Shown here: positions 29,368 through 33,256 of the stretch, piece by piece
Layout: each line of letters begins with the position of its first letter
Numbering within the stretch: the stretch's first letter is position 1
Assembly: GCA_028867755.1 (NCBI GenBank)
Contig: JAGWFT010000003.1
Location: 1-37,113 of the forward strand
From: Nitrososphaerota archaeon
GTDB taxonomy: Archaea > Thermoproteota > Nitrososphaeria > Nitrososphaerales > Nitrosopumilaceae
Reading direction: 5' to 3'
Length of the DNA: 37,113 nt
Notes under the pieces: model-generated
Told to the model about the DNA's origin: nothing
Seen by the model: only the letters and a program-made list of their open reading frames with translations
Database searches by the model: none
Translations under genes and position numbers: made by a program

Positions 29368-30393
29368 ATGAAAAAGCTTGCAATCATTGCATTGTTAATA
29401 GTTCTCACGACATTTGCTGTTCTAGGGTACTCCATAACAGCTTCTGCCCAAGAACCTTCTATACCAAACTGGATAAAAAATACTGCACATTGGTGGTCAC
29501 AGAATCAGACTAGCGATTCTGATTTTCTGCAGGCCATGCAATATCTAATTGACCATAACATATTGCATGTATTGCATCAAACCCAAGTTCAGCAAAGTTT
29601 GAACATGTCTGTGCAAACTCAAAACTTGCAACTGCTGCAGAAGGTAAATGATCTTCAAACTAGATACGACACTTTACAATCAAAATACAACCTGTTGTTG
29701 CAACAGGTAAGAAGCATTACAACACAGTCTGTGGCCTCTGGCGAAAATAATGCCTCCATATCTGCTGTAGCGGTACGACCTGTCATAGCAAATGACGGGT
29801 TCTTTGAAACCACTAGCTATCAGGGCTCTATACTAAAAATCACAGTCGAGGTTAGAGACGGAACTGGGCTCATACTAGTCAACACTGCGATTCCAACCGG
29901 CGTGGACTTTCAATCCTCTGCACATACTGCTGTCATGGTGGCCCAAAATGTAACTGAAATAGATTTGGCAAAAAAAGATATAATATTTTCAGTCAGTTCT
30001 GCCAATAACCAAGATCTACAGGCTGTTGATGGTGGTAGTGCAGGTGGTGCAATGACTGTATTGCTTGTCTCAGAACTGCTTGGAAAACAGATCAATAATC
30101 ACGTGTTGATGACTGGCACAATTCAACCAGATGGTACCATAGGGCCAATTGGTGCAGCAGACGAGAAAGCTGATGCGGCAGGTCAGTATGGTGCAAAAAT
30201 ATTTTTGGTACCACTAGGACAAGCAGTTGTTTCTGTGCAGAGCTGTAGTGAAAAAAATGAAGGGCCTATAACCTATCAGACATGTACTACAGAGCAAAAA
30301 CCGCTCGCTCCAATAATGCAGAGTAAGTATGGAATGCAAGTAATTGAGATAAACACAATTCAGGATGCTCTAAAATATTTTGATTCAAACTAG
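29368..30393 (+). CDS. Exported Lon-type (S16) protease without ATPase
   Basis: 341 residues. Signal peptide 1-28 (ends TASAQ). A short W-rich domain follows (IPNWIKNTAHWWSQNQ, DFLQAMQYLIDHNIL), then a coiled coil (about 78-116), then a Lon proteolytic domain. Catalytic Ser224 sits in VDGGSAGGAM and Lys267 in GPIGAADEKADAA; the 43-residue spacing equals that in E. coli Lon (Ser679, Lys722). There is no AAA+ domain, so proteolysis outside the cell would be ATP independent, as in other exported Lon-like proteins. Two cysteines near the end (QSCSEK, YQTCTT) may pair. Probably a surface quality-control or processing enzyme. Confidence 0.9.
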   Translation: MKKLAIIALLIVLTTFAVLGYSITASAQEPSIPNWIKNTAHWWSQNQTSDSDFLQAMQYLIDHNILHVLHQTQVQQSLNMSVQTQNLQLLQKVNDLQTRYDTLQSKYNLLLQQVRSITTQSVASGENNASISAVAVRPVIANDGFFETTSYQGSILKITVEVRDGTGLILVNTAIPTGVDFQSSAHTAVMVAQNVTEIDLAKKDIIFSVSSANNQDLQAVDGGSAGGAMTVLLVSELLGKQINNHVLMTGTIQPDGTIGPIGAADEKADAAGQYGAKIFLVPLGQAVVSVQSCSEKNEGPITYQTCTTEQKPLAPIMQSKYGMQVIEINTIQDALKYFDSN

Positions 30394-31454: not shown

Positions 31455-32333
31455 TTAGACTTTGATTATGCCGTTGCTGATGAGATATTGTACTCCTTTC
31501 ACAAAGTCATCATCTGATATCTCACTGCTTGCCCACCATCCTGCAGAATTTTTTATCCACGCAGGAATTTGTTGTGATTGATTGGTGTTTGATGCAGTAG
31601 GCGGCACCGCAATGATTCCTTGTTTTATCATATACTGAATCCCGCCTACAAACGTCTGGTCATTTATGGCCCCATCTGACCACCATTTGGCATCATTTTT
31701 GACCCACGGCGGAATTTGAGTACCAGTATTTGGAGGCGCGCCCACGTAAAATGTGTACACAGATTTTTCAAACTCTGCGGCATTTTGGTAAACTCCATTC
31801 TGCGATGAAGTCATAACTAGAAAATACTGCCTACCATCTTTTAACCAGAAGGAAAACTCTTCAATAATTGGGCTGTTCTGTGTGGTTTTGTTCTCAGATA
31901 CGACTACCTGAATAACATAACCATCAGAAAATCTTTGAATATTTTTTTGATATCCGACATACTTTGAACTATCAAACAACTTTGAAAGCGCAGTATCTAA
32001 GATCCACTCATCTGGAGCTGATGATAATGCAGGTGCTATGGGCTTACCTTGGTAGTAATAAATTGCAAAATCGGCTGCGCTTTCTGGATTTTCATTTGTA
32101 AATGTCACTAGTGCTGTATCTGATTTGTTGGCCTGGGTTACAGGAATCCATCCGGCAGGAGGCACTAGAGAAAAATTGTATACGGGATCTTTGTATGTAT
32201 TAGTCTGTATATTTGCAGAGTTAAACATGGAAATTGACAAATCCTGTGTATTATTTTCTTGGGCCCATGCAGAATTAGTCATCAAGAAAAAGAGTGTCAC
32301 ACTTAGTAAAATGGAATAAAAAACTAGTCTCAA
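31455..32333 (-). CDS. Exported PsbP-like protein with two W-rich domains
   Basis: 292 residues. Signal peptide 1-24 (ends AWAQ). The domain at about 45-200 starts YNFSLVPPAGWIPVT and has the PsbP/Mog1/DUF1795-like strand order. Two copies of a short domain follow: IPPWVKNDAKWWSDG...FVGGIQYMIKQGII and IPAWIKNSAGWWASS...FVKGVQYLISNGII. The same domain occurs once in the Lon-like protease at 29368. It is frequent in thaumarchaeal surface proteins and may bind a cell-wall or S-layer component. Convergent with the gene at 30868, 17 nt apart. Confidence 0.82.
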   Translation of the reverse strand: MRLVFYSILLSVTLFFLMTNSAWAQENNTQDLSISMFNSANIQTNTYKDPVYNFSLVPPAGWIPVTQANKSDTALVTFTNENPESAADFAIYYYQGKPIAPALSSAPDEWILDTALSKLFDSSKYVGYQKNIQRFSDGYVIQVVVSENKTTQNSPIIEEFSFWLKDGRQYFLVMTSSQNGVYQNAAEFEKSVYTFYVGAPPNTGTQIPPWVKNDAKWWSDGAINDQTFVGGIQYMIKQGIIAVPPTASNTNQSQQIPAWIKNSAGWWASSEISDDDFVKGVQYLISNGIIKV

Positions 32334-32546: not shown

Positions 32547-32577
32547 TGCTAAAAATCATCTGTCCAAAAGTGTAGAT

Positions 32578-32591
32578 TGCAACTAGTTGCA
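32578..32591. promoter_or_regulatory. 14-bp perfect palindrome
   Basis: TGCAACTAGTTGCA is a perfect palindrome. It lies about 15 nt upstream of the TATA-like CTTAATAA (32608-32615) that precedes the hairpin RNA candidate at 32637, so it could be its operator. Confidence 0.4.
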
Positions 32592-32636
32592 TTTTCTTGC
32601 TATTCTCTTAATAATGAATTCCAAACACAACTTGTA

Positions 32637-32714
32637 GGAACTGTAGGTAAGTCAGCATAACAACCCCATCCTCTGGCTTGCCTACGGTTTCATTTATCAT
32701 GTTACTATTTTTTT
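32637..32714 (+). ncRNA. Candidate hairpin small RNA D
   Basis: A 19-bp stem (32637-32655 with 32673-32691) encloses a 17-nt loop containing ACAACCCC (32660-32667). Fifteen pairs are Watson-Crick and four are G-U in + strand RNA; on the minus strand those four become C-A mismatches, so the sequence favours a + strand transcript. TATA-like CTTAATAA (32608-32615) is centred about 26 nt before the stem, and a T7 run at 32708-32714 could end transcription. No coding frame is supported. The neighbouring genes at 31455 and 32720 are both on the minus strand. Confidence 0.6.
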
Positions 32715-32719
32715 CTTAT

Positions 32720-33256
32720 TCAGGAAGAGACTTTGCGTGATTTTATGAATTTTGTTAGATGTACTGCACCAATAAACGGCCATGCCAGTGCCATGAAAAT
32801 GAAAACCATCCCAACTAACGAACTTGCATCAAAATTATTTGCCAGTATGTTTAGCGGAAACATGTACTGTTCTATGCTGGAAGGAAGATACGGGTTAAGA
32901 AAAGGCATTATATTGTTTTGAAATACATGCCATCCGACAAAGACTGTTACAAAGAAAAAGATTGCCTTTTTGCCAATATATCTCTCAAACCCTGCTCGCT
33001 CAAGCCTTGCAATCCTCTCACCAAGTGTCTGGATCTCTCCATGCAGTGTATCTATTGCGTGTTCTGCATGTCTTTGCAGTGATTGAGGATCTTGTGCACC
33101 AAGATACAATGGAATTATGCTTTCCAGGTATTTTTGATCCGATAAGGGCAGTGTTTTGTCTTTTGTCAGCAGTTGAAGAATGTATTCTAGTCTTCCGCGG
33201 TCACCTTTACCAAGCACGATCATTTGTTGAATGGAATTTACCAAACTTTCAGACAA
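32720..33256 (-). CDS. Two-helix membrane protein with helical N-domain
   Basis: 178 residues. The N-terminal 70 residues are helical and contain LPLSDQKYLESIIPLYLG, resembling the short oligomerisation region found in several archaeal membrane proteins. A coiled-coil stretch (about 65-90; IDTLHGEIQTLGERIARLE) leads to two hydrophobic helices (about 97-117 and 146-168) and a basic tail. No family recognised. The gene at 33297 starts the same transcript, 40 nt upstream. Confidence 0.72.
   Translation of the reverse strand: MSESLVNSIQQMIVLGKGDRGRLEYILQLLTKDKTLPLSDQKYLESIIPLYLGAQDPQSLQRHAEHAIDTLHGEIQTLGERIARLERAGFERYIGKKAIFFFVTVFVGWHVFQNNIMPFLNPYLPSSIEQYMFPLNILANNFDASSLVGMVFIFMALAWPFIGAVHLTKFIKSRKVSS

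Follow-up and report, generated by a model that had tools for sequence, protein, structure and literature searches.

A predicted hairpin RNA with its own promoter

In the window (the whole stretch of 37,113 nucleotides of archaeal DNA that was analysed), RNA folding predicted a plus-strand hairpin at 32637..32691, in which 32637..32655 pairs with 32673..32691 over 19 uninterrupted base pairs, enclosing a 17-nt loop (–26.4 kcal/mol for 55 nt). Four of the 19 pairs (stem pairs 2, 6, 12 and 16) are G-U, as an earlier reading of the letters alone (referred to as the sequence-only reading) had described. Its further claim that only the plus strand pairs was borne out as well: the 88 nt around the hairpin gave a z-score of –5.41 on the plus strand (equalled by 0 of 200 shuffles) versus +0.96 on the minus strand, where pairing was limited to an interrupted structure of about –12 kcal/mol. 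The stem comprises a basal part that recurs in the family alignment discussed below (5′ arm GGAACUGUAGG at 32637..32647; 3′ arm CCUACGGUUUC at 32681..32691) and an inner part (5′ arm at 32648..32655; 3′ arm at 32673..32680) that, according to the fold and the alignment of close relatives, is specific to the group of hairpins referred to as type A. Fold, covariance model and pairing counts all assign the hairpin to this type. Its loop carries the core CAACCCCATCC (32661..32671), which we propose as a pairing (seed) site.

The TATA-like box that had been noted some 26 nt before the stem corresponds to CTTAATAA at 32607..32614 (plus strand), with its centre ~26.5 nt before position 32637. Judging from the spacing, transcription is predicted to start at a conserved AG at 32636..32637, ~25 nt from the TATA centre, and this A-G is invariant in the type A alignment (A2). 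Further upstream, at 32577..32600 on the plus strand, lies an element of the form TTGCA-N5-TTGCA-N5-TTGC with a 10-bp period, which is conserved in type A loci and is probably an activator or operator site. Downstream of the stem, the expected run of seven T residues was found at 32708..32714, within a probable 3′ end region (32692..32714, plus strand) that is marked by its sequence and by the T enrichment of the whole family in the first 10 nt past the stem (51% T, falling to a background of ~32% beyond). These start and stop signals, lying tight against a compact hairpin, suggest a primary transcript of ~60–75 nt.

The hairpin faces a convergent minus-strand gene (32720..33256) for a 178-aa protein, predicted by eye to be a membrane protein and without a match in Pfam or NCBIfam. 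The same gene adjoins type A wherever the neighbourhood could be read; in members of the genus without this RNA, the place is taken by another convergent gene or by some other sequence. On the other side, a plus-strand gene of ~240–420 aa ends just before the promoter in 9 of 11 genomes. This gene has been lost from the window while the promoter and RNA remain, which argues that the hairpin is not a product of its 3′UTR. Beyond the convergent neighbour, the window encodes an HD_4 domain protein (Pfam PF13328; 33506–34084, minus strand) that is conserved in 10 genomes, and a secreted protein with a PEFG-CTERM sorting signal (NCBIfam TIGR04296; 35243–35746, plus strand), similar proteins to which flank the RNA in relatives. 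A 341-aa secreted protein (29368–30393, plus strand) has weak similarity to Lon-type S16 proteases, with no AAA part, and shares an IPxWIKNxAxWW motif with the protein encoded at 31455–32333 on the minus strand.

Conservation and covariation of the type A hairpin

A DNA search of 41 genomes revealed relatives of the hairpin in six further genomes of the same genus (one other match, at L008, was attributed to chance). The resulting covariance model R1, built from seven sequences, was run on 250 genomes from the taxonomic family. In 11 of them, each a different species of the same genus, it detected a single copy, with E-values of 2.6e-5 to 1.8e-28 that are rough owing to the short calibration of our covariance models. 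No match was obtained in the other 21 genera of the family among these 250 genomes. Recovery of the same hairpin with the same promoter in 11 genomes by the covariance model excludes chance. The matches listed included type A copies in two Thaumarchaeota MAG records, Centralia_MAG_78 and clean277. A degenerate loop-plus-stem pattern run against GTDB genomes mostly returned chance hits among the matches listed, the real ones being the Thaumarchaeota contigs L042 and L061 only.

All type A loci share one order of elements, i.e. TTGCA repeats with a 10-bp period, TATA box, a spacer of 24–30 nt to the stem, basal stem, inner stem and loop core, with TATA box and upstream element conserved at fixed distance. 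The loop sequence (A)ACCCCATCC is invariant in 11 of 11 genomes, and the longer core CAACCCCATCC is identical in 10 of the 11 members, the eleventh reading CAAACCCCATCC. The type A stem is palindromic, and the relatives L003–L005 fold and align without force when read on the hairpin strand.

Pairing was counted on a hand-made structural alignment of the 11 genomes. Standard pairs occupied 205 of 217 stem cells (94.5%), compared with 29–51% when the strands were slid against each other, and 7 of the 20 pairs showed changes on both sides; genome G229 alone contributed A-U to G-C, G-C to C-G and U-A to C-G replacements. The cells that departed from Watson-Crick pairing comprised 28 G-U versus 2 A-C, indicating that the plus strand is the one that must pair. 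The compensatory changes in relatives that the sequence-only reading had named as a test were thus present, with pairing kept in 11 of 11 genomes. Together with the fixed distance of the TATA box and upstream element, this pairing supports its proposal of a primary plus-strand small RNA, at the level of comparative sequence evidence.

A multi-gene family of hairpins with a common basal stem

Weak matches in a sensitive search of the genus turned out to come from further hairpins built on the same outer stem. A degenerate pattern of this stem occurred in 13 of 37 genus genomes, against 0 for a backward control, and 25 examples of about ten types could be aligned from TATA box to stem without force. 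These 25 sequences, the hairpin of the window among them, were used to train a general covariance model (R3), which includes the TATA region, the TATA spacing having been seen before R3 was built. With R3, 56 family members from about 20 genomes were collected in the fetched loci. At E-values up to 0.1, 18 of the 37 genus genomes matched and the genome of the window yielded three members. Across 400 genomes from 66 genera of the order (E up to 0.01), the R3 matches came from 15 genomes in this genus and from three in another genus belonging to the same taxonomic family, with none outside these two genera. Three matches in viral contigs did not have the TATA-stem layout and were judged to be chance.

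All 56 hairpins have the basal stem GAAACUGUAGG/CCUACAGUUUC in common, together with a TATA box (TTATTTA, CTTAATTA or CTTAATAA) at fixed distance from the stem and a loose AATnnTACnCA motif ~12 nt upstream of this box. The window hairpin, scoring 60.5 bits with R3 (as one of the training sequences of that model), fits the consensus GRRRCUG(U/C)(A/G)G / C(U/C)(A/G)CAGUUUC with the TATA box at its fixed distance, and departs from it only in CUACGGUUUC, which pairs U-G. Over the 56 members the basal stem was paired in 98.9% of cases (33–51% for slid strands), a level that is partly selected since types B to R had been retrieved by means of their stem, using a pattern or a model. Two-sided changes were found in 44 cells of this stem, versus a shuffled mean of 11.3, and 0 of 500 shuffles reached 44. 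The inner-stem covariation of types A and F was not selected for by the search. The 3′ arm carries UUU in all 57 rows of the alignment and the 5′ arm varies between A and G, an asymmetry that was partly imposed by the search pattern.

No Rfam family reached its gathering score anywhere in the window, none scored an E-value below 5 in the 181 bases around the hairpin, and a tRNA search found none. Together, these comparisons mark the hairpin, by sequence conservation, as a predicted and conserved gene for a small RNA that has several sisters.

Hairpin types differ in loop and locus

Loops were constant within a type and different between types: AACCCCAUCC in A and B, UUCCUACCA in F, GUGCCCUUCCC in I, AACCCC in J and AUCCCAAACCCUC in P. 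Type B constitutes a second paralogue, with the loop AACCCCATCC as in type A and another inner stem and promoter. The loop core is conserved in types A, F and B, as would suit the pairing region of a base-pairing small RNA. Throughout the family, C makes up 38% of the unpaired bases and G 6%.

From species to species, each type retains a locus and a promoter of its own. In 11 genomes type F is found at a single locus, close to genes resembling purQ and purS (named from N-terminal motifs only), and locus stability was likewise seen for type J (3 genomes), G (3) and N (2), and less so for type B. In the genome of the window, the two further members are a type I hairpin with an internal GGGAA..UUCCC and a GUGCCC loop (G000:C24:750300-750420, minus strand, L380), and a type F hairpin with an UUUCCUACCAAAA loop near purQ-like and purS-like genes (G000:C24:963818-963917, plus strand, L381). 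Type G (L309, L312 and L397) is a larger hairpin with a more complex interior (GUCAAGCCAGACCAU..GUCUUGAC) and lies beside the same genes in three genomes.

The TTGCA-repeat motif is common to the upstream regions of types A and F, and similar sites occur at other places in the genus genomes; the excess of this motif over a backward control is overstated, since the reversed pattern contains CpG and makes for an unfair control. The element suggests a shared transcription factor, as a lead rather than a result. TTGCA repeats with the same 10-bp period were also seen at around position 1500 of loci L198, L200, L201 and L214, from genus members without the type A RNA, between two genes that by eye appear to encode a ribbon-helix-helix-like protein (176 aa) and a small HTH protein (106–109 aa). 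These repeats may be the operator of a factor that governs the RNAs of types A and F as well. In type I promoters (L335, L338 and L342), the TATA box is preceded by a palindrome resembling TTGTTCACGAACAA, a control element different from that of type A.

Target searches and comparison with known RNAs

A perfect complement of the type A loop occurred nowhere else in its own genome. Complements with one mismatch were near control counts in most of five genomes, and those that were conserved among the five lay only antisense to genes. No conserved sense site was found in these five genomes for 10–11-nt complements of the loop.

Archaeal H/ACA and C/D guide RNAs are small and structured, with many per genome and variable guide parts; a C/D box RNA carries a C box (RUGAUGA) and a D box (CUGA), and an H/ACA RNA an ACA/ANA box after the stem, a pocket and a k-turn. 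The present hairpins resemble them as small structured archaeal RNAs with several copies per genome and a variable part. A C box was present in 0 of 56 members, and 3 of the 56 had an ANA no more than 6 nt from the stem; the stem in the window is continuous and lacks a pocket. Neither class was retained.

In Listeria, the multicopy small RNAs LhrC1-5 use C/U-rich sites to base-pair with G-rich stretches close to the start codon; their copies are nearly identical, measure 111–114 nt and have three sites each, two of the three in loops (PMC4132741). The archaeal hairpins are like LhrC in having several sister RNAs per genome with C-rich loops, a functional likeness without homology, and differ from these bacterial RNAs in being hairpins of 55–75 nt with a shared stem and differing loops. 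Methanosarcina mazei sRNA162 and sRNA154 are archaeal intergenic small RNAs that act on mRNAs by base pairing (PMC3510493, PMC5867862), sRNA162 both in cis and in trans (PMC3510493), but the descriptions are of single genes with a different structure, not of a multi-gene family built on one constant stem. Thaumarchaeota go unmentioned in a review of regulatory RNAs in archaea (PMC5867862), and the available part of a Red Sea study mapping thaumarchaeal transcripts describes no such RNAs. Searches of open-licence literature on small RNAs of ammonia-oxidizing archaea and on archaeal multi-copy hairpin small RNAs brought to light no such hairpin family, and yielded nothing on small-RNA regulation in ammonia-oxidizing archaea. 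To our knowledge, very little is known about archaeal small-RNA regulation in general.

Interpretation and alternative explanations

The constant stem and the type-specific, G-poor loop suggest a common scaffold that presents a pairing loop. We favour, with a probability of roughly 0.6, the reading that the locus encodes an independently transcribed, trans-acting small RNA of ~60–75 nt with a shared scaffold and an exchangeable C-rich pairing loop. Its own TATA promoter would yield a short non-coding RNA belonging to a multi-gene hairpin family, possibly under control of a transcription factor acting at the upstream TTGCA repeats. The stem would lend the RNA stability and probably serves as the binding site of a protein common to the family, leaving the exposed loop (AACCCCAUCC) to pair with G-rich mRNA stretches (e.g. 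around start sites) and so to control translation or stability of the mRNA. Different members could then answer different signals and hit different targets while using the same scaffold.

CsrB-type RNAs titrate CsrA, and the stem and/or the C-rich loop might similarly act as a sponge for a regulatory RNA-binding protein instead of pairing with mRNA. We kept this rather unlikely role as a reading since no conserved sense target was found and the genome has no complement of the loop apart from the locus itself. It would also account for stem sequence being kept across types beyond what pairing demands (the 3′ UUU and the A or G of the 5′ arm), and the C-rich loops of several types could amount to one loose protein motif; however, the UUU may serve termination instead, and loops that are invariant within and different between types better suit separate pairing targets. 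An RNA acting only on the convergent minus-strand gene, by 3′UTR pairing or transcription interference, is improbable: type A does lie beside that gene in every genome with a readable neighbour, and no T-run terminator for the gene was found between its stop codon and the hairpin, but neither an invariant loop nor G-U pairs nor sister RNAs would be required of an RNA that is perfectly antisense in cis, and the genes next to the other types are unrelated and differently arranged.

Transcription termination in archaea requires no hairpin, and although a hairpin with T-rich DNA behind it, set between converging genes, resembles a terminator or 3′UTR structure of a neighbour, we regard that origin as very improbable. 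As the sequence-only reading had held, the hairpin does not suit a terminator of the minus-strand gene: on that strand pairing is lost, so that no stable hairpin with a U-run is formed, and a conserved promoter lies directly upstream. The upstream plus-strand gene is no better a candidate, being absent from the window where promoter and hairpin persist. Scarcely credible, finally, is the view of the hairpin as a MITE, a mobile DNA element bounded by the terminal inverted repeats GAAACTGTAGG/CCTACAGTTTC. The same terminal inverted repeat does recur at several loci with differing interiors, but most types represent one conserved locus across species whose neighbouring proteins are 57–72% identical, which gives no sign of mobility, and non-Watson-Crick cells are G-U rather than A-C, the TATA box stands at fixed distance outside the repeat, and the inner stems covary.

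Within the trans-acting small RNA reading, it is conceivable, and we propose it tentatively, that a single dedicated protein binds the constant GAAACUGUAGG/CCUACAGUUUC stem in every member and presents their different C-rich loops to different mRNAs, with each RNA expressed from its own signal-controlled promoter. The sister RNAs of these ammonia-oxidizing-type archaea, with one near-identical stem and differing C-rich loops, suggest an undescribed set of regulators, and the covariance-model family is absent from Rfam. If true, the proposal would amount to an archaeal platform of exchangeable-loop regulatory RNAs, in which the constant stem, changing loops, stable loci and separate promoters make the common protein, the pairing of loop and target, and signal-specific expression directly testable.
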